From Pelatocladus maniniholoensis HA4357-MV3 (GTDB taxonomy: Bacteria; Cyanobacteriota; Cyanobacteriia; Cyanobacteriales; Nostocaceae), in NCBI GenBank assembly GCA_019359115.1, contig JAHHHW010000133.1:1-36698 (forward strand): a stretch of 36,698 bases of DNA, in the 5' to 3' direction. This document shows, piece by piece, positions 25,156 to 36,096 of the stretch; the stretch's first letter is position 1, and every line of letters starts with the position of its first letter. A program made the position numbers and the translations under genes. Below the pieces are notes generated by a model. It saw only the letters and a list, made by a program, of their open reading frames with translations. It was not told the DNA's origin and made no database searches.

Positions 25156-25202
25156 GTAGTCAGGCTTAAAGTCCTGATTTTGAGGATGAAAATCCTCACT
25201 AC
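25156..25202. repeat. GGACTTAAGTCC-type repeat, copy 2
   Basis: GTAGT (25156-25160) and ACTAC (25198-25202) enclose two small hairpins (AGGCTTAAAGTCCT and GAGGATGAAAATCCTC). It is related to the palindrome at 1161-1209. Confidence 0.5.
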
Positions 25203-25285
25203 AAACAAAAAATGAGATTTAACACCTTGTGTAAGTCCCAATACTGCTCGGATAAGACAAATCGATTAACATTTAAACCCACCAG

Positions 25286-25311
25286 AGACGTGATATATCG
25301 CGTCTGGTACA
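25286..25311. repeat. GAGACG palindromic repeat, copy 3
   Basis: A 26-bp near-perfect palindrome, CCAGAGACGTGA/TATATCGCGTCTGG, with one mismatch. It belongs to the family at 171 and 6822. Confidence 0.55.
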
Positions 25312-26295
25312 ACTCCAAAATTATGACGAAAATCCTATTCCTTGTAGTATTCGTGTAAGTCCTTTCAGATATACATTCAATCTTAATATGTGCATTTTTG
25401 TACACTTAGGTATTGATACTAAAAACCTAGCTCTGAATATAAATAAATTTTTGCTTATGCAAATATTTTCTATTTCACATTCTCTTTATTTCTCAATCGA
25501 AAATTTCATGCTGGATTTATCTTTTTTATTCAAATTAGAGTAATCTAAAAGTAAGGAAGATAAATTTTTAGGCATGGAGTAAATTAGTTGAATTACAGCA
25601 AAATCATGGAAGCTTAGAGTTGTAATTCTTCACTGTAACTATTCATCGAGATCATCAGTACAATGTTTTAGAGGGTGTTTTCCGAACATATGAAGAAACT
25701 GCCTTTTTGAAAGCCAATCACAGCTGCATCTTCTACTCCACTATTAAAATTCGTGCAAAAATCAACCAAAAAGTGAGCAAGTGTAGTCTTCGAGCTTTCC
25801 TCTTTGAGTGTAACTGGGTCAAAAGGATAATATTGTTACCTTTGTTCTTGTATCCTTGGCTTTTCCCAGCTTCTTGCCAATGCGATCGCATAAGTTAGGG
25901 ACGATAAAATCAAATTATTGACAAAATACCCAATATTCACTCTCAAATGAGGGATTTTGAGCTAGTCAATAACTAACTAAGATTACTCGTCAAATCCAAT
26001 GGATTATATTTTTACCAGTCTGCTTGTATGCTATTTGCTATTCCATCTCGCTACAAGAGCCAACAGCAGAGTCTGTATCAAGTACTAAATATCCTAATAT
26101 GGCGCTGTTGATGAGGTTTGCTACTGATTTTTGAAACTAATTATCTACTTTATGGATTTTTTATCCTTTTATATGGGTATATGAACCCGCACCATAAGCT
26201 AATGTTAAATAGGTGCAATAGCAGGCGCTGTTTCATGGCAACAAGTGGAGCCATTTTGCATTTGTCAATTTTGATTTTATTTGAGAGCAGTAGCC

Positions 26296-27492
26296 ATGAA
26301 GATACTTCCTATTAATCGATACAGGTTTTATCAGTCATTACAGCCGTTATTTTTGTTGAAGAAAATAACTAGTAAGTCTACTACCGGTTGTTTGCAAGTT
26401 TTTACAGCTTCGGGTTCTTGGTCAATATATGTGGAGGAGGGTAAATTAATTTATGCGTGCTGTACAGAAAAAATGTTTGAGCTGCTTTACAAACACTTGC
26501 AGCGTTTAAGTCAAAAAATACCTACTCTCCACAATGGCATCAAAGAGCAATTGCGGGCAATTTTTGAAACTGGGATTGAGAATCAAGCAATACCAAATCC
26601 AGATTATCTAGGTATTTGCTGGTTAGTTAATCAGAAATATCTTACTCCATCTCAAGCTGGGATATTGGTGGAACAATTGGCTTTAGAAGTTTTAGAGTCG
26701 TTTTTGCTGCTCAAAGAGGGGAGTTATGAATTTACTCCAGAAAGCTTTTTGGATGAAATGCCAAAGTTTTGTCGTTTGGATATGCGCTTGTTAGTCGAAC
26801 GTTGTCAAAAGCGATCGCATCATGCATCTATTCCTAATGGAAAAACAGAATCTAGCGTTGACACAACAGCATCACAGCCAGACGCTTTTGGACGACGCCA
26901 TCTAAATCATCAATCAGCTTCAGAATTTGCTCTTACTCCCCGACAACAAACTTCCCAGAGGATATCTAAGGGCGAAGGTAAATCAAATCCTGGACAACAG
27001 CATCTCCATGTTGTCCCCCCAACTCAGCAACCATTGCCTAAACCAAGGCAGAATAACGTATTACCTCATCCTGTCAGTCAGAACAACAGTAGCCGTCCTT
27101 TAATTTCTCAACCAAATGCTGAGAAAAAAGTTTACACTGTCTTCTGTATTGATGACAGTCCTACTGTGATCAATGCTATTAGGAAATTCTTAGATGATCA
27201 AATGTTTTCTGTTATGGGCATTAACGATCCACTCAAGGCTCTAATGCAAATTATTCGCCTCAAACCAGATTTGATTTTACTAGATATTGAAATGCCTAAC
27301 TTGGATGGTTATGAATTGTGTTCATTAGTACGGAAACATTCTCACTTTAAAGATACACCTATAATTATGATTACAGGTAGAACAGGTTTTATTGATAAAG
27401 CTAGAGCAAAACTTGTGAGGGCATCAGGCTATTTAAGTAAACCTTTTACACAGGCAGATTTACTCAAAGAACTATTTCAACACATTAAGTAG
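26296..27492 (+). CDS. patA: PatA-like response regulator (heterocyst pattern control)
   Basis: A 398-residue protein with the PatA layout: an N-terminal PATAN/DUF4388 domain (about residues 1-190; KKITSKSTTGCLQVF, GSWSIYVEEGKLIYACC, FETGIENQAIPNPDYLGICW), a Gln/Pro-rich linker (about 190-280) and a C-terminal receiver domain. The receiver has the Asp pair in VFCIDDSPTV, the phospho-acceptor Asp in LILLDIEMPNLDGYEL (about residue 329), Thr in IIMITGRTG and Lys in GYLSKPF, so it looks phosphorylatable. In Anabaena PatA promotes heterocysts at internal filament positions, and patA also lies beside the pec operon, which supports orthology. The ATG at 26296 is chosen over an in-frame TTG at 26281 because MKILPINRYRF matches PatA. 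Confidence 0.88.
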   Translation: MKILPINRYRFYQSLQPLFLLKKITSKSTTGCLQVFTASGSWSIYVEEGKLIYACCTEKMFELLYKHLQRLSQKIPTLHNGIKEQLRAIFETGIENQAIPNPDYLGICWLVNQKYLTPSQAGILVEQLALEVLESFLLLKEGSYEFTPESFLDEMPKFCRLDMRLLVERCQKRSHHASIPNGKTESSVDTTASQPDAFGRRHLNHQSASEFALTPRQQTSQRISKGEGKSNPGQQHLHVVPPTQQPLPKPRQNNVLPHPVSQNNSSRPLISQPNAEKKVYTVFCIDDSPTVINAIRKFLDDQMFSVMGINDPLKALMQIIRLKPDLILLDIEMPNLDGYELCSLVRKHSHFKDTPIIMITGRTGFIDKARAKLVRASGYLSKPFTQADLLKELFQHIK

Positions 27493-28038
27493 CTGTACAA
27501 AAATTCAGGATGAATTGTAGATGCACAAACTATCGTGTCATCTTCTCTTTTCTGCAACATATAATTAGTTATACCATTTGAAATTTTGGATTGAGAATGC
27601 TTTGTGCTTCTGGCTTAATTTCAATCCATGCGTCGCGATGATTTTTTAAATTGGTATTACTACAAAAATATAGGAAGCAAAACCAAACCAATTATCTCTA
27701 TGCAATCATTTTTTGCTTCCTCAAACTAGATTGATTTTTACTAGCTTTTATTAAGATAAAAAAGCAAAAATCAGATATTAATAAGGTTTGTTAAACAAGC
27801 ATTTTGTCATTTTTATTTGTAGTTATATTTCCGCCGTTATATGCTAATAAATCTCAACATTGATATACGTATGAGCTAATAACAGGCAGAGATTTTTCAA
27901 AGTTTAATGCTTCATTTCAGAATCTCAAAATTGCCCGATAATTCCGAGCAGGGTACAGAAAGCGGATTTATTCCACGAATAAATCCAAAATCCAAAATTG
28001 TCTGACTTACTTAACCTTCTGAGCATAGAGATAACTTA
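27493..28038. other. Gap between patA and the MCP-like gene
   Basis: A 546-base AT-rich region. No gene is seen, and no cheY- or cheW-like remnant could be recognised in any frame. It ends with AATCCAAAATCCAAAATT-type low-complexity sequence at about 27982-28000, also seen near 36350. The sensor gene presumably has its own promoter here. Confidence 0.5.
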
Positions 28039-31000
28039 ATGGTTAACAGAATTAATTCCGAACCGAAAAACAGTGGTTATCATCGGCGCACATTTAGAAC
28101 TTCGTCCGAAACAGAAACTGTACTTCAGCGCCGAAATTATTCTCTCTATTCTCCTATCAATAGTGTTATAGCATGGGCAAAACAAGTTAGTTTCCGCACC
28201 AAAGCCATCGCCTTTGCTGTTGCGATTTCCACACTACCAACCTTGGGAGTGGGAGCTATGACATATTACTTAGTCAATCAATCTCTCATCAAAGAAATTA
28301 GTAATATCAAACAAACTAGCGCCCGCAATTTGGCAGATAATATTGAGCGATTTATGCTGAAACGATATCAAGAAATTCAGCTATTCGCTAACCAAAAATT
28401 TCTGACTGACTCCAAACTCAAAGATAGTTTAGATGCCGAAAATAAAGTAGCACGGCTCAATAACTTGCAAGATATCTATCAAATCTATGAAAGCATTGCT
28501 GTTGTAGATCTCAATGGTAATGTGTTTTTACAAACCCAAGGTGAATCACTTCCTAATCAAAAAAATCAGGAATATTTTCAAGCGGTTCTGAAAACCAATA
28601 AGCCATATATTAGCCAGCCATTGATCACTACAAATATAGAAAAATCAAAAATTTATTTGGCTGCACCAGTTAAAGATAGTATCACGAATAAAACTGTTTA
28701 TATTGTCCAAGCAGTTGTATCGATACAATCTTTAGGGCAAACACTCAATAAGCTTTCCAGAATTAACGATGAGTACCAATTAATAGATCCTGCGGGTAAG
28801 ATTTTTTTGGCAACTGATCCCAATCACTTGGGTAGAGATGCTCAAAAAGTTATTCCCAAATGGGATAAATTACAAACATCGCAGCAAGTAGTAACACGTA
28901 TATTACGAGATCGCAAAGGTAAAGCCGAAGATTTAACAACCTTTGTTCCTTGGCAAAAAACAGCAGGTTTACCAGACTTAAATTGGCAATTAGTCTTGAG
29001 TACAGACAAAGCGATCGCTTTGGGAACACAAAGACAATTATTATTGGCATTAGTTGTGGGAACGGTTGTGACGGCCTTATTAGTGGGTGCGATCGCTGCT
29101 ATTTTAGCCAACCGTCTGACTCTACCAATCCAAAATGCCACAATGGTGGTGAAAAAACTAGCTAGAGGTAATTTTGACAGCCGTATTCATGTCCAAGGAG
29201 AAGATGAATTTGCTACCTTGGGAGCCAGTATTAACCGCATGGCTGATCAACTACAAGACTTGCTCAACAAACAAAAAATCGAAGCCGAACGCCTGAAGAT
29301 GTTTACAAATATTCTCACAGTACTTCGGCAATCACTTAATTGCGAGGATTTATTTAATACCACAGTTGTAGAAGCCAGACAAGCACTAGGAGCGCATCGA
29401 GTTGTTGTCTATCACTTTAATCCCCACGGTAGGGGACAAGTGATCGCTGAGTCTGTGGCGCCTGGATTACCAGTAACTTTGGGTGACACCATTGAAGACA
29501 CCTCGATTGCTAGGCAATTGGTGGAAACCTACACAACCAACGGTATTCTGATCGCCAACAACATCTTTGAGACAGACTTGGTTTCCGAACATCTGAGATT
29601 AATGGAAAGACTACAAGTCAAGGCGATATTAGCGATACCGATTCTCAAAGACAATCAAATCTTTGGCTTTTTGATTGCTCATTACTGCTGGGCGCCCCAT
29701 GTTTGGCAACCTTTTGAAATTAATTTCTTGCGACAGTTAGCAGTTCAAGTGGGGCTGGCTTTAGAACGAGTACATTTACTCGAAGTTAGCCAAGTACTCA
29801 AAGATTTTGCCATCCATTTATCTGGAACTTTCAATTCTCAGGAAATCTACAACTTAGCAGTTCAAGATATCCGTAAAGCCTTAAAAGTAGATCGTGTCGT
29901 CATCTGTAAATTTGATGAAAATTGGCAAGGTAGTATTTTAGCCGAGTCTGTAGTTGAAGGTTTGCCTGGCGTAGAACAAAGATGGAATGAAGCTGCTGTG
30001 CAAGATTACAGAGAAAAGCATCGCCAAGGTGGTGTACTGGCTGCTAACAATATTTATCAAGCAGGTTTTTCGGAAGTTTACGTCAAACAGTTAGAATCTT
30101 TTGCAGTCAAAGCGCATCTAGAAGCACCGATTTTGTTGGGTGGTAATTTACTGGGCTTGTTAATTGCCCACCAATGTACCAGAACTCGCGTTTGGCAACA
30201 AGCAGAAATTGAGTTATTCGAGCAATTCGCCAGATTAATCGGACTGGCTTTAGAAAGAGCTAATCTTTTAGAACAAAGTGAAAAAGCTTCCGAACAGCAA
30301 CGTCAGCAAGCAGAACAACTGCAAGAACAACTCAACAGACTTTTAGATGATGTTGTGGGAGCCAAAAGAGGCGATTTAACGGTACATGTAGAAGTTAGCA
30401 AAGGCGAAATCGGTGCGATCGCAGACTTTTGTAACTTCATTGTCGAGAGCTTGCGCGAAATTGTCATCCAAGTTAAAGCAGCTGCTACGCAATTAAATAG
30501 TGCGATCGCAGAAAATTCAGGAGTAATCAGCCAACTCGCCATTGACACATTCAAACAAACCCAGGAAATAGATCGTTCTCTTGATGTTGTTGATCAAATC
30601 CGGCTTTCCATCAAAGGGGTAGCCAAAAATGCTAGATTAGCTACAGCAGTTGCTCGTACAGCCTCTCCTACCGCCGAAATTGGCGACGCTGCGATGGATC
30701 TCACCGTCGAAAATATCTTTAGCCTGCGGGATTCAATGGGAGAAACAGCTATAAAAATCAAGCGTTTAGGAGACTACTCGCAACATATTACTCGCTTGGC
30801 TTCTTTAATTAAACAAATCTCCTTACAAACTAACTTGTTAGCAATCAATGCTGGAATTGAAACAAGTCGCGTGGGTAGAGATAGTGATGCTTTGATTTCT
30901 TTTTCTGAAGAAGTAGCTGCGCTGGCAACTGAAAGTGCTACAGTCACAGGTGAAATTGAAGGAATCGCCGCTAATATTAACCTAGAAGTTAGGGAAGTTG

Positions 31001-31302
31001 TCAAGACAATAGAATTAGGAAGTGATCAGGTAATAGAAGTAACTCATTTGGTTGAAGATAGCAAATACAGCTTAAATCAAATGCTCAATGTTTGTTACCA
31101 AGTTGACGAATTAGTACAGTCAATCTCTCTAGCCACAGTCTCTCAAGTGCAAACTTCTAAAGAAGTCATTCATTTAATGAAAGAAATTGCGAAAGTATCT
31201 GAAATGACTGGTGGTTCCTATCGCAAAGTATCCGCTTCTCTGCAAAAAACCTTAGAAATTTACCAACAGTTACAAGCAAGTGTTCGTAGTTTCAAAGTTT
31301 AA
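28039..31302 (+). CDS. Large MCP-like sensor: Cache-type input, HAMP, two GAF domains, degenerate signalling domain
   Basis: A 1087-residue membrane receptor. One membrane helix (about 55-78), an extracytoplasmic Cache-like domain (about 80-330), a second helix (about 333-355) and HAMP (356-410) are followed by GAF1 (about 430-575), GAF2 (588-743), a Gln-rich coiled coil and a C-terminal methyl-accepting-type helical region (755-1087). The GAF domains lack the Cys-His bilin site of cyanobacteriochromes. At the signalling tip the sequence is QTNLLAINAGIETSRVG (from about 930), where receptors normally have [22 protein letters not shown]. The GExGRGF part is lost, so coupling to CheW/CheA may be altered. 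It is flanked by patA and a CheA-type HPt fragment, recalling the pix/hmp-type chemosensory operons. Confidence 0.85.
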   Translation: MVNRINSEPKNSGYHRRTFRTSSETETVLQRRNYSLYSPINSVIAWAKQVSFRTKAIAFAVAISTLPTLGVGAMTYYLVNQSLIKEISNIKQTSARNLADNIERFMLKRYQEIQLFANQKFLTDSKLKDSLDAENKVARLNNLQDIYQIYESIAVVDLNGNVFLQTQGESLPNQKNQEYFQAVLKTNKPYISQPLITTNIEKSKIYLAAPVKDSITNKTVYIVQAVVSIQSLGQTLNKLSRINDEYQLIDPAGKIFLATDPNHLGRDAQKVIPKWDKLQTSQQVVTRILRDRKGKAEDLTTFVPWQKTAGLPDLNWQLVLSTDKAIALGTQRQLLLALVVGTVVTALLVGAIAAILANRLTLPIQNATMVVKKLARGNFDSRIHVQGEDEFATLGASINRMADQLQDLLNKQKIEAERLKMFTNILTVLRQSLNCEDLFNTTVVEARQALGAHRVVVYHFNPHGRGQVIAESVAPGLPVTLGDTIEDTSIARQLVETYTTNGILIANNIFETDLVSEHLRLMERLQVKAILAIPILKDNQIFGFLIAHYCWAPHVWQPFEINFLRQLAVQVGLALERVHLLEVSQVLKDFAIHLSGTFNSQEIYNLAVQDIRKALKVDRVVICKFDENWQGSILAESVVEGLPGVEQRWNEAAVQDYREKHRQGGVLAANNIYQAGFSEVYVKQLESFAVKAHLEAPILLGGNLLGLLIAHQCTRTRVWQQAEIELFEQFARLIGLALERANLLEQSEKASEQQRQQAEQLQEQLNRLLDDVVGAKRGDLTVHVEVSKGEIGAIADFCNFIVESLREIVIQVKAAATQLNSAIAENSGVISQLAIDTFKQTQEIDRSLDVVDQIRLSIKGVAKNARLATAVARTASPTAEIGDAAMDLTVENIFSLRDSMGETAIKIKRLGDYSQHITRLASLIKQISLQTNLLAINAGIETSRVGRDSDALISFSEEVAALATESATVTGEIEGIAANINLEVREVVKTIELGSDQVIEVTHLVEDSKYSLNQMLNVCYQVDELVQSISLATVSQVQTSKEVIHLMKEIAKVSEMTGGSYRKVSASLQKTLEIYQQLQASVRSFKV

Positions 31303-31320
31303 GTAAACAAGACCGATCCA

Positions 31321-31349
31321 GATCCCCGACTTCACAAAAGTTGTCGGGG
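31321..31349 (+). terminator. CCCCGAC-type hairpin, copy 3, after the MCP-like gene
   Basis: CCCCGAC (31324-31330) and GTCGGGG (31343-31349) are followed by TTCTTGTTGTT, 19 bases after the sensor stop codon. It is a plausible but weak intrinsic terminator, and a member of the dispersed family at 3689 and 19254. Confidence 0.5.
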
Positions 31350-31541
31350 TTCTTGTTGTTCAAATAAGTTAAACATTTAATTAAGAAAAATTAAAAAGAT
31401 AAATAATGAAAATTGAACAATATTTGACAGTTTTATTTTAATTACTAATTTATAGTTGAGTAACTCCTGAGTAAACATTATTTGCCAATTAATTCGGAAT
31501 TAATAATATCTACGATAGCTGTTGTTTGTCTACATAGCTTA

Positions 31542-31714
31542 GAGGTTGTTTGAAAAGTGATTGGCTGTAATTTTAATTACATTATTACCCCCCTTAATCC
31601 CCCCTTATAAAGGGGAGAAACAAGAGAAATCCGGTTCCCTCCCCTTTACAAGGGGAGGGTTAGGGTGGGGTAAAAAATATTTGATACATCAATCATGACT
31701 TTTCAAATATCCTC
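31542..31714. mobile_element. 173-bp MITE-like palindromic element
   Basis: The left end GAGGTTGTTTGAAAAGT (31542-31558) and right end ACTTTTCAAATATCCTC (31698-31714) are inverted repeats with two mismatches over 17 bases. Both are flanked by TTA (31539-31541 and 31715-31717), a likely 3-bp target duplication. The interior is a second dyad: CCCCCCTTAATCCCCCCTTA and TAAAGGGGAG-type blocks against CCCTCCCCTTTACAAGGGGAGGG and TTAGGGTGGGGTAA. No coding capacity. The termini resemble ends seen with IS5-type transposons in cyanobacteria, from memory only. Confidence 0.65.
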
Positions 31715-31798
31715 TTAGACATATAGTCTTGTTTTTAATTCTGGATTCCGCATTCACCATGTATTCCCTTGTATTTGGTATCAAAAATAATTCCAGCT

Positions 31799-32665
31799 AT
31801 GTTAAAAAATAGGGAACTAGAAAACCAGACAAAGTTTCTGGAAGAAGCCAACGGTAATTTGAATACCCTAGAATCTATATTTTTGCAATTAAACTCTCAG
31901 TGTCAAAGCTATTCGCCAACGATTGATTTAGCCCTCCAAAAAATCCATTTTATCAAAGCTGGTGCAGAGCTTCTAGGCTTTCCTTTGCTTAGTAATTTTG
32001 CTCATCGTTTAGAAGATGCGCTACAAATTTTAAAAAAGCAGACTAACTTTTTAGAAATTGACAGCGAGTTACATAGTTTACTATTATCCGGTGTTGAATG
32101 GTTACGTCAGATAGTGGAATTACTTTCTGTTGGCTATGTTATGGATGAACAATGGTTAGTAAGTTTTTGTTTTCCAGTCTTTGAGGAATTAAAAAAGCAT
32201 GTGAGTGAGCAAAATTTGGCAAATAACAAGACACAACATCCACCATATAACGAACTGGAAGACATCATAGTATTAATTTTTCAAACTGAGGTTGAAGAAT
32301 ACTTACAACACCTCAAATCTTTATTAGCTAAGATAGACAAGTCTAATTTAAAATCAGAAGTCATCATCATAGCTACTCAGTTGGATGATTTGGGAGAACT
32401 ACTGAATTTAAAAGCATTTACTCAGCTTTGTCGGTCAGTAATACAACACTTGAAAGAAAGTGCATCCTATGCAGATGTAACAGAAATTGCTCAATTAGCC
32501 TTATTGACATGGCAGCGATCGCAAACATTGATACTGACAAGACAATTTGAGCAATTACCCACTGAAATTGTGACTAACTCAGATAAAAAAGTTAATATTT
32601 TTGAGGAATTTACAGTATCAGAATCGTTGTTCCAAAACGACAATGTCAAAACAAGTAAAAAGTAA
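31799..32665 (+). CDS. Orphan HPt-domain protein, like the N-terminus of a CheA hybrid kinase
   Basis: A 288-residue protein matching only the N-terminal part of a cyanobacterial chemotaxis-type histidine kinase. The HPt domain covers about residues 1-110, with the phosphorylatable His in KIHFIKAGAELLGFPLLSNF (normally HSIKGGAAML) and AHRLEDALQILKK. A second helical region around LEDIIVLIFQTEVEEYLQHL resembles the segment following HPt in such kinases. Dimerisation, ATPase, CheW-like and receiver domains are absent. It ends in low-complexity AAAAAGT heptamers (NVKTSKK), suggesting the gene was cut by a repeat. ATG 31799 is chosen because MLKNRELENQTKFLEEA aligns with CheA starts; an upstream TTG frame is possible. 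Truncated gene or a free phosphotransfer protein. Confidence 0.65.
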   Translation: MLKNRELENQTKFLEEANGNLNTLESIFLQLNSQCQSYSPTIDLALQKIHFIKAGAELLGFPLLSNFAHRLEDALQILKKQTNFLEIDSELHSLLLSGVEWLRQIVELLSVGYVMDEQWLVSFCFPVFEELKKHVSEQNLANNKTQHPPYNELEDIIVLIFQTEVEEYLQHLKSLLAKIDKSNLKSEVIIIATQLDDLGELLNLKAFTQLCRSVIQHLKESASYADVTEIAQLALLTWQRSQTLILTRQFEQLPTEIVTNSDKKVNIFEEFTVSESLFQNDNVKTSKK

Positions 32666-32849
32666 AAAGTAAAAAGTAAAAAGTAAAAAGAAAGATTCCC
32701 ACTGATAAATCTGTGGGCTTGAAAAAAGGACACCTTTTACCTTGCACTACGTGTCTCGGTAAAATTATGAGTGTTTAAGTGGGCTTGATACCCACAACTG
32801 AAGTTTTTTATGAGTGCCTTTTAACTTTTTACTTTTTACTTTTAACTTG
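32653..32849. repeat. Inverted pair of AAAAAGT heptamer arrays after the HPt gene
   Basis: About five units of AAAAAGT (32653-32690) begin inside the last codons of the HPt gene. A matching inverted series (TTTTTACTTTTTACTTTTAAC, about 32820-32848) lies 130 bases on, before cobA. The pair brackets a segment with a GTGGG..CCCAC-like dyad. It could serve as a convergent terminator, or mark the point where the kinase gene was lost. Confidence 0.7.
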
Positions 32850-32876
32850 GAGCGAAGCGACTGTAAATAAGATTGA

Positions 32877-33671
32877 TCATAACGGACGATAACCAGATAA
32901 AATCTTGTGCATGTTCACCACCGATCCAATCACCATGATCGCAGGTGCTTCAAATCCAGATTGCTCAACTTGCTCTACAATTGTTCCCAATTCACCGATT
33001 AATTCTTCCTGATCTGGACGCGTACCCCAACGTACCAAAGCAATGGGAGTTTCCAGACTCAACCCCGCCTTTATTAACTCTTCGGTAATATAAGCCAGAT
33101 TGTGAATTCCCATGTATATTACTATCGTTTCCGAACCGTGAGCGATCGCACTCCAATTCACAGTTGGTCGATACTTCCCTGCTGTCTCATGACCAGTAAC
33201 AAATGTCACCGAAGAACTATACAATCGATGAGTCAAAGGAATACCTGTGTAGGCTGGAGCAGCAATTCCCGATGTAATACCTGGCACAACCTCCACACTT
33301 ACTCCTGCTAGCAACAATTCTTCCATCTCTTCGCCACCGCGACCAAAAACAAAAGGGTCGCCCCCCTTCAACCGCACAATGATCGCATGTTCTTGGGCTT
33401 TCTCAATCATTAACTGCGTCGTTTCTTCCTGCATCAAAGAATGACGTCCTCGGCGCTTACCAGCATTAATTCTTTCAGCTTGGGGATTAATCATTTCTAG
33501 AATTGCGGGACTAACCAAAGCATCATAAATAACAACATCTGCACACTCCAACAATCCCTTACCCTTGAGTGTCATCAACCCCGGATCTCCCGGTCCCGCA
33601 CCAACTAAATAAACTTTTCCCAAACAATTTTTCCCCTCTTTCTTGGCGTCCTTGGCGTTTTGGCGGTTCAT
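32877..33671 (-). CDS. cobA: Uroporphyrinogen-III C-methyltransferase (SUMT)
   Basis: A 264-residue SAM-dependent methyltransferase converting uroporphyrinogen III to precorrin-2, the branch point to sirohaem and cobalamin. Motifs: KVYLVGAGPGDPGLMTLKG near the N-terminus, YDALVSPAIL, RLKGGDPFVFGRGGEE, VEVVPGITSGIAAPAYTGIPLTHR and IVIYMGIHNL. ATG 33671 overlaps the upstream stop as ATGA, so translation is probably coupled. The first 12 residues (MNRQNAKDAKKE) are encoded by a CGCCAAGGACGCCAAG-type dispersed repeat and are not part of the enzyme fold; the domain starts at about residue 18. Confidence 0.94.
   Translation of the reverse strand: MNRQNAKDAKKEGKNCLGKVYLVGAGPGDPGLMTLKGKGLLECADVVIYDALVSPAILEMINPQAERINAGKRRGRHSLMQEETTQLMIEKAQEHAIIVRLKGGDPFVFGRGGEEMEELLLAGVSVEVVPGITSGIAAPAYTGIPLTHRLYSSSVTFVTGHETAGKYRPTVNWSAIAHGSETIVIYMGIHNLAYITEELIKAGLSLETPIALVRWGTRPDQEELIGELGTIVEQVEQSGFEAPAIMVIGSVVNMHKILSGYRPL
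33640..33668. repeat. GGCGTCCTTGGCG repeat forming the cobA N-terminus
   Basis: The plus strand reads TTGGCGTCCTTGGCGTTTTGGCGG, i.e. CGCCAA repeated on the coding strand. Similar sequences encoding NAKDAKKE-like peptides are common between genes in cyanobacteria. Here it has been taken into the start of cobA. Confidence 0.5.
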
Positions 33672-34393
33672 TCTTGGATCAAATCCCAAACTAAATCAGC
33701 TAATTCTGCACTTGCTCCTAGAGGTTCTGCTAATTGCAAATCCACATCAGGAAACTGTAATTGTAACTTTTCTGTTACTTGAGCGATCGCATCAGTTATT
33801 CCACCCGCGAATAAAAAGTATGGCAAAATTGCAATTTGCTTGTTTCCAAGATTGATCAACTCTTTGACTTTGACTTCTAAACTGGGAGGTACAGACCAAT
33901 AAGCATTGACTGCACCTAAATTTTTTCCTATTGTTTCCACTGGCGTTTGCGAACCCGGACGGCGACTACCGTGGGCGATCAGAATTCTCGCCGTCGCTGT
34001 TGTAGTGGCGAATTGCTTTGCCAACAACAACTCTAAACCAGAGTGACTACCTAAATATGGTTGTAATTCTATCAAAATCTCTTGACTAAGAGCCTGTCTA
34101 GCCAACGCTACCTCAGTGGGAATATCATCCATCACATGTACCCCTGGGAGCAAAAATAATGGCACAACTTTCAGGCGAATCTTATCACAAGCAGCTGAAT
34201 TTCTTACAAACTTGATGATCTGCTGATGCAAAGGTTCTGGGTTGAGTTCTAAACACGCTGTATCAACTACAATTTCAGATCCAACACTTTGGACTTGCTC
34301 AATTACCAGCCTTGCTAACTGCTGCATCGCAACTCCTGGGCGCGGATCTCGGCTACCGTGGGATACTAGTAAACATGCAGGCATCATTAGCAA
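33668..34393 (-). CDS. Sirohydrochlorin cobaltochelatase/ferrochelatase, CbiX/SirB type
   Basis: A 241-residue class II chelatase inserting Co2+ or Fe2+ into sirohydrochlorin, the step after precorrin-2 oxidation. Two tandem CbiX repeats are visible: CLLVSHGSRDPRPGVAMQQL (His12) and ARILIAHGSRRPGSQTPVE (His about 142), each with HGSR and each followed later by VPLFLLPGVHVMDDIP or ILPYFLFAGGITDAI segments carrying the second half of the site. Directly upstream of, and overlapping, cobA by 4 bases, so the pair makes consecutive enzymes of the sirohaem/cobalamin route. Metal choice cannot be told. MetMet near the start leaves the exact ATG open (34393, 34387 or 34384). Confidence 0.9.
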   Translation of the reverse strand: MLMMPACLLVSHGSRDPRPGVAMQQLARLVIEQVQSVGSEIVVDTACLELNPEPLHQQIIKFVRNSAACDKIRLKVVPLFLLPGVHVMDDIPTEVALARQALSQEILIELQPYLGSHSGLELLLAKQFATTTATARILIAHGSRRPGSQTPVETIGKNLGAVNAYWSVPPSLEVKVKELINLGNKQIAILPYFLFAGGITDAIAQVTEKLQLQFPDVDLQLAEPLGASAELADLVWDLIQE

Positions 34394-34460
34394 AGGTACA
34401 ATTTAATACATCTAGTTAATTTATTTTAGCAAATTCTAAATATTACTTTTATTATTTTTT

Positions 34461-34500
34461 GTTGGTTGTTGGTAGAAAAATAATTTTTCCAACAACCAAC
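34461..34500. repeat. Stem-loop GTTGGTTGTTGG between katB and the chelatase gene
   Basis: GTTGGTTGTTGG (34461-34472) pairs perfectly with CCAACAACCAAC (34489-34500) over a 16-base AT loop. It lies 28 bases after the catalase stop codon and probably forms its mRNA 3' end, though no T-tract follows on the minus strand. Confidence 0.6.
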
Positions 34501-34527
34501 ACACAACTAACACCAAATACTAATTAA

Positions 34528-35217
34528 CTACGACTGCTTTTCGGCGACAGGATCAGCAATGTAACGGAAAGTTGGTTCAGAATTCCAAGGGCCACGCTCA
34601 TCTTTGCCATTTGTGGACAAGTTGTAGTAAATATCAACCGTGCTATCAGGTTGGATATTCCCAAAGAATGGATCTGTTAATTTACCCAAAGAATCTAGTG
34701 CTTTCATAAACATTTGGGTGTGAGAGATTTCTCTAGTCAAAAGATGAACTAAAGTATTTTTACTACCTTCATCTGGTGCTAGTTTAATCAATGCTTCGTA
34801 AGTCTGACGCGCACCAGCTTCAGCAGCAATATCAGCTCTTAAATCGCGGACAACATCACCACCTTCATTGACGTAATTAGCATTCCAAGCAACACCTTGG
34901 CTATCTAGTAAATGTGGCCCCATACCCCGTACAGAAAACAAAGTACTTTTATAAGCTTCAGTTTGGTCAACATTTTTGGTATGAGCTTCGATGAGTTTAC
35001 CCACCATTTCTAAATGACCAAACTCTTCTATTGCAATATCTTGCAGCATATCCCGAATTCCAGGGTTTTCACAGTGAAAAGACTGAGTCCAATATTGCAA
35101 AGCCGCCGTTAATTCACCTGTTGCACCACCAAACTGCTCTAAAAGTAATTGGGCAAAACGTGGATTAGCTTCTTTGACATTAACGGCATGAATTGTCTCT
35201 TTTTTATGAAAAAACAT
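34528..35217 (-). CDS. katB: Manganese catalase (non-haem)
   Basis: A 229-residue dimanganese catalase that splits hydrogen peroxide to water and oxygen in the cytoplasm. The four-helix bundle ligands can be placed: Glu35 (GATGELTAALQYW), Glu65 and His68 (IAIEEFGHLEM), Glu133 (IAAEAGARQTYE), and His166 (REISHTQMFMKAL) next to Glu163. Length matches short Mn-catalases; Anabaena has two such enzymes with roles in peroxide and desiccation/salt tolerance. The paralogue (KatA or KatB) is a guess, so the symbol is tentative. It has its own 352-base upstream gap. Confidence 0.9.
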   Translation of the reverse strand: MFFHKKETIHAVNVKEANPRFAQLLLEQFGGATGELTAALQYWTQSFHCENPGIRDMLQDIAIEEFGHLEMVGKLIEAHTKNVDQTEAYKSTLFSVRGMGPHLLDSQGVAWNANYVNEGGDVVRDLRADIAAEAGARQTYEALIKLAPDEGSKNTLVHLLTREISHTQMFMKALDSLGKLTDPFFGNIQPDSTVDIYYNLSTNGKDERGPWNSEPTFRYIADPVAEKQS

Positions 35218-35569
35218 CGATTAGTTTCCTCTCTTGAAATTTTTGATTTGACATCAAAATAATGTGGATAAAGTGTTGATCAAAAATTTAACTGCTTCAT
35301 CCACACACTAGATAATTACCAGTTGCAATATCTCACAACTAACTACTAGTATTTGCAAAAAATATGTTTGTGACGCTGCTCTATTTAATAATGTTAAACA
35401 TTGCAGCAAGTCTTCACCTTCTCCTAAAGAATGACTTGCTGTTCAATTATTTCTAACTAAAGCTTTATTTCTTTCTGACAAAAACTTCATTAAAATCTAA
35501 AATCGTTATCTCAATCTCATAAGTAGGTTGGCACAAAAAAGCTAACTAGTGAGGATGCTCCTCAATACC
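35218..35569. other. Gap upstream of the Mn-catalase gene
   Basis: A 352-base AT-rich region. A small hairpin GAGGA-TGC-TCCTC (35551-35563) follows the DUF4359 stop on the minus strand, with six Ts about ten bases further on, a weak terminator. The catalase promoter must be to its left. Nothing else is seen. Confidence 0.5.
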
Positions 35570-35986
35570 TCATTGCTGTTCAGCCTTATAAGTGTAAAAC
35601 TGGTCAAAAGCTCCCAGTGTCTCAAATTTATAACCAGGTGTAGAGGGTAAAACAGAGTCAACCCTCAATGCAGGTATTAAAGAATTCACATTTAAATCTG
35701 TACGATAAATACTAAAAACAATAAAATCTTGACGTTCGGTACTCTCAGCGATGATTTCTCGGATTTGCGGTTGGGCAGAATTTACTACCTGCCTGCAATT
35801 AAACTTTATGACATTTTCTAAAAATTTTGGAGTTTTTTTACAGACATTTGTGTTGAGATATTCTGTCAATCTTTGTGCTGCGTAATCTTCATATTCAACT
35901 TGATTGGGATTAGTCTGAGTCATTACTACTCCCAAGGCAGCTAGACCAAAGACTCCCACATATGTCATAATGTTCAGAAATCTCAT
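35570..35986 (-). CDS. DUF4359-type secreted or membrane-anchored protein
   Basis: A 138-residue protein with one N-terminal hydrophobic helix (residues 5-23, NIMTYVGVFGLAALGVVMT) acting as signal or anchor, without an obvious cleavage site. The rest is predicted to face the periplasm or lumen: NPNQVEYEDYAAQRLTEYL, two cysteines (in NVCKKTP and KFNCRQV) that could form a disulphide, and a C-terminal beta-rich part (VFSIYRTDLN, YKFETLGAFDQFYTYKAEQ). The pattern matches the DUF4359 family of cyanobacteria. Function is unknown. It diverges from the tRNA-His gene. Confidence 0.75.
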   Translation of the reverse strand: MRFLNIMTYVGVFGLAALGVVMTQTNPNQVEYEDYAAQRLTEYLNTNVCKKTPKFLENVIKFNCRQVVNSAQPQIREIIAESTERQDFIVFSIYRTDLNVNSLIPALRVDSVLPSTPGYKFETLGAFDQFYTYKAEQQ

Positions 35987-36096
35987 TTTTTAAAGGGTAA
36001 TTTGCTGTTGTCTTTAGACTCAAGATTACCTGAGTCCGTTCCTTGAAAAATTTTTGGATAAATTTCTCAAGGAAGTGCTATAATCAGAAACGCAAT

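Follow-up and report, generated by a model that had tools for sequence, protein, structure and literature searches.

The window analysed here is the whole 36,698-nucleotide stretch of contig JAHHHW010000133.1 (assembly GCA_019359115.1, positions 1 to 36,698, forward strand) of the cyanobacterium Pelatocladus maniniholoensis HA4357-MV3, and it carries three plus-strand genes in a row: patA, a gene for a sensor resembling methyl-accepting chemotaxis proteins (MCPs), and a gene for a stand-alone histidine phosphotransfer (HPt) protein. The patA gene (26299..27492; reading frame open from a TTG at 26281) encodes a 397-aa response regulator in which Pfam recognised a PATAN domain (DUF4388, residues 17-151) and a receiver (residues 281-392, E 1.8e-24). 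The sensor gene (28039..31302) encodes 1087 aa arranged as dCache-HAMP-GAF-GAF-MCPsignal (E 2.2e-22 for MCPsignal), and the HPt gene (31799..32665; frame open from a TTG at 31769) encodes 288 aa with a Pfam Hpt domain at residues 12-90 (E 4.4e-8). Given the gaps of 546 bp between patA and the MCP gene and 496 bp between the MCP and HPt genes, the trio is not a tight operon. The original prediction had described a minimal or decayed PatA chemosensory locus with these genes in line and without cheY, cheW or the kinase core, and both points held: tblastn with CheY, CheW and CheA queries at E up to 0.01 found no remnant of cheY, cheW, the CheA domains P3, P4 and P5 or a receiver in positions 25200-36000 beyond the HPt and the PatA receiver. 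The same order recurs in nine further genomes (G109, G057, G004, G060, G008, G048, G065, G093 and G017, with a cheW inserted in G048; G-numbers denote genomes, G000 being that of the window, and L-numbers denote loci), so the trio is not a chance arrangement. In G091 patA and the MCP gene still adjoin, on contig C76, and the HPt gene is on contig C8; because each lies well inside its contig, the HPt gene has been kept there without linkage.

To place the trio among related loci, the neighbourhood of patA was surveyed in 85 genomes from 51 genera of the same family, over 8.5 kb on each side of patA or less at the end of a contig or stretch. The genomes were picked from about 140 searched, partly for their MCP or HPt matches, which biases the shares; a gene was counted if it shared the strand of patA and kept to the order cheY, cheW, MCP, CheA, and the hmp-type loci L062, L063, L065 and L072 were left out. 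A cheY accompanied patA in 23 genomes, a cheW in 11 (in two of these a broken piece), an MCP gene in 30 (in one a fragment, and at L083 on the opposite flank of patA) and a CheA gene or piece of one in 35. The complete set patA-cheY-cheW-mcp-cheA stood beside patA in 4/85 genomes and 2/51 genera, among them Calothrix parasitica NIES-267 and Rivularia MS3, and intermediate states were found in other surveyed genomes. A position unrelated to patA in many species would have spoken against the original prediction, and this was not seen: the MCP gene adjoins patA in 15/51 genera and CheA or a piece of it in 16/51. Separate pat and hmp loci were present within one genome in the window genome, G022 and G051. 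The intact operons around patA, together with the kinase-excised CheA forms described below, go beyond what had been predicted, and no patA operon or reduction of one was described in the literature as covered by titles and the openings of abstracts, with subscription journals mostly out of scope. Upstream of patA, two full operons of the Calothrix/Rivularia type carry a further receiver gene (252-271 aa) whose resemblance to PatA is confined to the receiver half (L059, 2191-3006; L061, 13061-13819).

The MCP tree bears on whether the full operons and the trio share an origin. It was made by a quick method from the last 520 residues, with three further MCPs encoded in the window genome as the root. 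All 24 MCPs of the pat type, those of the full operons included, formed one clade (Shimodaira-Hasegawa-like approximate likelihood ratio test, SH-aLRT, 97) that stood next to six HmpDs (99); two of the 24, L080 and L082, are located away from patA. In a tree of the P1 domain, from which L003, L004, L057 and L078 were left out, the HPts of the window clade (group g1) and of Scytonema/Brasilonema-type genomes (g5/g50/g11) grouped together (98/98), separate from the hmp CheAs (89/79). Their clade also held L048, a P1-P4 protein that does not adjoin patA, and the grouping of all pat CheAs was unsupported (57/59). The PatA trees were likewise quick, left out L071 and contained no row identified as the PatA of PCC 7120; the window protein fell with PatA and not with HmpA, in a clade of 63 PatA-locus rows (SH-aLRT 94), and the HmpA rows made up one side of a branch (100). 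Taken together, gene order and the MCP tree give good support to the view that the trio is what is left of an Hmp-type operon, patA-cheY-cheW-mcp-cheA, that arose by duplication.

The surviving proteins differ in how much they retain. The receiver of the window PatA was predicted to be intact, and its site is complete (D285, D286, D329, T359 and K381; codon of the phosphoacceptor Asp329 at 27283..27285), which with the PATAN domain gives the make-up of a PatA orthologue. PatA is 88-95% identical in six Fischerella-type relatives, with 92-95% in Fischerella sp. PCC 9431, Fischerella muscicola SAG 1427-1 and Westiellopsis prolifica and 88% in Fischerella muscicola PCC 7414 and F. thermalis PCC 7521, which makes a true-branching cyanobacterium that forms heterocysts the very likely source of the window. 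By alignment, the HPt protein corresponds to residues 1 to about 256 of CheA, that is, to P1 and a second helical bundle, and within the window genome it is most similar to the N-terminal end of HmpE (48%), a CheA of 1023 aa which lies on another contig in a complete hmp-type locus and has all CheA domains. The phosphorylatable histidine expected in the HPt piece is present as His50 (codon 31946..31948), and this residue and the lysine three positions on are identical in all 30 aligned P1 domains; outside that alignment, the P1 of G007 has Asn in place of the lysine. An HPt fold with the HxxK motif was indicated by Pfam, by alignment and by a profile search, which among PDB sequences gave seven matches, BRIC1 first and then six CheA entries. 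A structural model built from a 15-row alignment is a chain of helices (predicted local distance difference test score, pLDDT, 79; predicted template modelling score, pTM, 0.47). The PDB fold search with this model gave no match at E 0.001 or better, and its best match, which suggests a similar fold, was the P1 domain of Rhodobacter sphaeroides CheA3 bound to CheY6 (E 0.0039; template modelling score, TM, 0.84 on the target). The helices of the second bundle (residues ~150-256) had suggested a degenerate HPt domain, but comparison of its profile with that of the first domain by hhalign found no relation (probability 0.03%), and this reading was dropped.

The MCP tip was said to have lost the motif GExGRGF. 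The hairpin tip is indeed altered, to GRDSDAL (residues 946-952; 30874..30894), but the motif of this family is GEEGQGF-like and not GExGRGF, with GEEGQGF in HmpD of the same genome. The MCPsignal domain is there, and the kinase-binding tip motif is not; in what would be the numbering of Tsr, the window MCP retains E385 and R388, which make trimer contacts, and the changes begin at E391. In the aligned set, the GF that closes the motif was kept in 7/9 patA-linked MCPs with a local CheA that reaches P4, compared to 4/18 without. Exceptions occurred in both directions, with GEAGQGF in L084 without a CheA and GENNPANF in L066 and L078 with one, and a change of the tip following kinase loss is left as a possible trend in these counts.

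The order in which the operon was lost can be followed through the relatives. In the Chlorogloeopsis-type (g17) and PCC 7414-type (g8) genomes CheA is 598-607 aa long and retains P1, the second bundle, P3 (recognised by alignment and not by Pfam) and P5, and the terminal receiver is gone. The ATPase domain P4 has been excised at the same junction in all four such CheAs (G060, G091, G065 and G093; loci L037, L038, L041 and L042), so a CheA whose ATPase domain was cut out while P1, P3 and P5 stayed is found in two genera, Chlorogloeopsis and Fischerella (F. muscicola PCC 7414). A single excision of P4 in the common ancestor of g17 and g8 would explain the shared junction. F. thermalis PCC 7521 (G008) has lost P3 in addition, and only the HPt part is left in the window clade, in PCC 7702 (G017) and in G048, where a P5 remnant still lies behind the HPt. 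The HPt-only state of g5/g50/g11 arose on a separate branch, and pieces of cheW remain at the loci of g5 and g50. In three genera, g7, g37 and g44 (L185, L198 and L202; L169 of Iningainema tapete is the G044 locus), the CheA next to patA is reduced to P1 and the ATPase domain and lacks P5 and the receiver; the best local matches had pointed to kinase-only pieces in g7, g37 and g44, which the finding of P1 beside the ATPase domain ruled out.

Half-lost forms of this kind are also what slow decay would leave behind, if one gene after another were disappearing from around patA and the HPt gene, perhaps with the MCP gene, were an unbroken relic. The CheW fragments in the Scytonema-type loci L044-L047, the P5 remnant of G048 and a broken CheA in G076 are in line with this, as are the relaxed HPt, the relaxed P5 of g8 and the genomes in which patA stands alone. 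In contrast, truncation of CheA ends near residue 256 in several lineages. Selection was assessed from the ratio of nonsynonymous to synonymous substitution rates (dN/dS), calculated pairwise by the Nei-Gojobori method (NG86) in seven Fischerella-type genomes and given as ranges of group means, with HmpA of G109 (a short frame) left out. The whole MCP had a dN/dS of 0.11-0.12, similar to HmpD at 0.10-0.18, and residues 910-975 around the tip had 0.04-0.08. The values for PatA were 0.13-0.17 overall, 0.04-0.05 in PATAN, 0.04-0.08 in the receiver and 0.29-0.51 in the linker, compared to 0.03-0.09 for HmpA. The bootstrap interval for the HPt protein was 0.19-0.45 (window versus G060) and excludes 1, and in neutral simulations on a simple tree all seven HPt frames stayed open in 0/1000 runs. 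P5 of g17 was tightly held (0.10), and the HPt-only genes of the separate g5/g50/g11 clade were as slow as whole PatA (0.18-0.22 compared to 0.20-0.28). The MCP is therefore under strong purifying selection and the HPt protein is relaxed yet constrained, and neither evolves at the pseudogene-like rate that would have spoken for decay. The original prediction had offered either a decaying operon or a reduced phosphorelay: the dismantling is real, with full, intermediate and broken forms, and so is the purifying selection on what is left, while the relay from HPt to PatA and an external input to the heterocyst pattern are inferred. This is reduction but not simple decay; we consider slow decay unlikely, while giving it some weight, and favour a reduced but maintained system.

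Our preferred reading, to which we assign a probability of roughly 55%, is that the trio is a reduced second Hmp-like operon with PatA as its output, the leftovers of which are functional, with an HPt protein that is charged in trans and exchanges phosphate with PatA. P4 was excised from the pat CheA in a common ancestor with Chlorogloeopsis, cheY and cheW were lost, and the window clade then lost P3 and P5 so that the HPt module was left; the MCP tip that would grip CheA and CheW changed in the same lineage. Origin, order of loss and selection are shown by the data, and the partner kinase, the phosphotransfer, the role of the MCP and the effect on heterocyst pattern are inferred. The HPt protein could be charged by an intact CheA encoded elsewhere, the best candidate being HmpE, whose P1 it resembles, and the charged HPt might then swap phosphate with the PatA receiver, as the P1 of R. 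sphaeroides CheA3, once charged by CheA4, does with its regulator. The MCP would have no kinase array of its own and would work via mixed receptor assemblies or another contact. CheW domains were found on five contigs of the window genome, four of which carry a CheA found by means of the HPt sequence, HmpE included. On the fifth (G000 contig C68, about 45524-49522) there were two matches in a 369-aa frame and one in a 932-aa frame, possibly another CheA.

HPt domains transfer phosphate both ways, and the local kinase is gone while the HPt histidine and the PatA aspartate stay; a protein that acts as a phosphate sink, draining PatA of phosphate instead of feeding it, would leave the same picture. 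We regard such a sink as very improbable. Another alternative is that the MCP and HPt now serve a different system, such as the Hmp motility array or hybrid kinases, and that their place beside patA is a matter of history. The genes do come apart in some genomes: G091 keeps its HPt away from patA-MCP, and in G018, G050 and other genomes MCPs of the pat clade are located at a distance from patA, several of them with conserved-looking tips (GEDAQGF in L080 and L085, GEEAQGF in L082, but DKEAQGF in L081); CheW-domain genes remain on the five contigs of the window genome. However, the MCP adjoins patA in so many genera, loci without CheA included, and the five PatA receiver residues are intact in all PatAs read from loci with an HPt-only or kinase-excised CheA, and for these reasons a transfer to another system appears quite doubtful.

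Several observations weigh against the preferred reading. The PatA phylogeny allowed six full-operon PatAs, by this tree only putative orthologues of PatA, to group with HmpA (p of the approximately unbiased test, p-AU, 0.73, not rejected, in a clade test that left out L072 and a long outgroup), and because of this the claim of origin is carried by the MCP and the gene order and not by PatA. The HPt sequence HSIKGGAG has become HFIKAGAE in the window, so that the HPt may be fading, and its dN/dS of 0.22-0.30 is about five times that of the same residues of HmpE (0.055-0.062). The signalling part of the MCP is about twice as loose as that of HmpD (0.06-0.11 versus 0.03-0.05), and P5 of g8 has a dN/dS of 0.67 with an interval of 0.31-1.76 that passes 1, which indicates that loss is going on. 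A 116-bp repeat resembling a miniature inverted-repeat transposable element (MITE; 31575..31690, no strand assigned) stands between the MCP and HPt genes. In 27/85 genomes patA has no partner at all within 8.5 kb, and PatA can thus do without local partners. Asp329 was kept in 34/35 rows with a CheA piece beside patA and in 83/96 without, a difference that did not reach significance (Fisher p 0.11; counted after removal of L071, the rows of G091, four rows of hmp type and 32 identical ones), and in four independent pairs it was on average unchanged in 3.8 and changed in the opposite direction in 0.2.

The aspartate of PatA is informative in its own right. Of 169 PatA rows, a set that holds some genomes twice and five hmp-type or partial rows, 17 have Asn, Ser or Gly in place of Asp329, and many of the replacements are in Nostoc- or Anabaena-named genomes; the rows concerned include L088, L190, L192, L196, L209, L210, L217, L145 and L157. 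The fewest changes on the tree that account for these losses are six, and 16 of the 17 rows have no CheA piece beside patA, the remaining one being G037; among the genomes in which CheA is cut down to P1 and the ATPase domain, the PatA receiver site is damaged in G007 and G037. Judged from these residues, PatA in several species cannot be phosphorylated at the usual aspartate, and such a PatA may act without phosphorylation. Among 120 genomes of the order, 32 gave PatA matches at E 1e-40 or better, six of them members of the family and 26 outside it with at most 197 bits.

Several smaller features of the locus were also recorded. The MITE-like repeat has 49 matches in the genome, of which five, itself included, are full-length at 98-100%. 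A diverged copy (73% over 97 bp) lies in the same gap of G109, one of six relatives, which rules out a repeat private to the window; the repeat was not found in that gap in the searched stretches of the other five. An array of AAGTAAA heptamers (32653-32690) lies directly behind the stop codon of the HPt gene, and an inverted counterpart, CTTTTTA, is present about 130 bp further on (32818-32848). A search for NtcA boxes upstream of the MCP or HPt gene gave no site common to the seven relatives.

A wider picture can be drawn, which we put forward as a tentative possibility. Heterocyst patterning may have taken over the output arm of a chemosensory operon, PatA having first answered to a private array of receptor and kinase, and true-branching cyanobacteria might still run a kinase-less relay in which a motility CheA charges a private HPt that sets PatA, with the new-tip sensor adding a signal from outside. 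Motility sensing would then be tied to heterocyst placement, and with HmpE as the donor, patterning would be joined to the system that serves hormogonia in Nostoc punctiforme. The series from full patA operons to patA alone suggests an origin for PatA together with candidate kinases and sensors, and the species with a full patA array, with an HPt only, with nothing, or with a PatA that lacks the phosphorylatable aspartate provide natural experiments.

Four known systems can be compared with the trio. The name hmp is applied to the copy in the window genome by resemblance. The Hmp system of Nostoc punctiforme (hmpA-F) shares with the full pat operons a PATAN-receiver regulator, CheY, CheW, MCP and CheA in the same order; a complete copy is also present in the window genome, and the parts of the trio are paralogues of it. 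It is reported to serve hormogonia (PMC6495340). The trio differs in that only the PatA, MCP and HPt parts are kept, the output is PatA and the MCP tip is altered: a PATAN-receiver gene comes first as in Hmp- and Pix-type operons, cheY and cheW do not follow, and a CheA with dimerisation, ATPase and CheW-like domains is represented by P1 and the adjoining bundle only. In Synechocystis, each of three tax operons is reported to have one PATAN-receiver regulator (PMC5812497), which is the likeness to the trio; these Pix/Tax operons are complete and connected with type IV pili. PatA of Anabaena sp. PCC 7120, reported as a PATAN-receiver regulator needed for intercalary heterocysts (PMC7380572, PMC9410556), has the same make-up as the window PatA, whereas the Nostoc-named PatA loci covered here have cheY or none of the set near patA and no pat-type MCP or CheA. 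A parallel to an HPt without a kinase is the split CheA of R. sphaeroides, in which CheA3 is reported not to autophosphorylate and to act with CheA4 as one CheA, its middle domains thought to have degenerated after duplication (PMC10782961), and in which CheA4 phosphorylates CheA3 (PMC6829392). Both have an HPt on a protein without a working kinase domain, and the CheA3 P1 was the best fold match of the HPt model. CheA4 is encoded in the same operon as CheA3, whereas the kinases of the window genome are encoded elsewhere; P3 and P5 are lost in the window, and P4 was cleanly excised in the relatives. An HPt with a CheW-like P5 on a kinase-less protein is found not in the window but in the g8 and g17 relatives.

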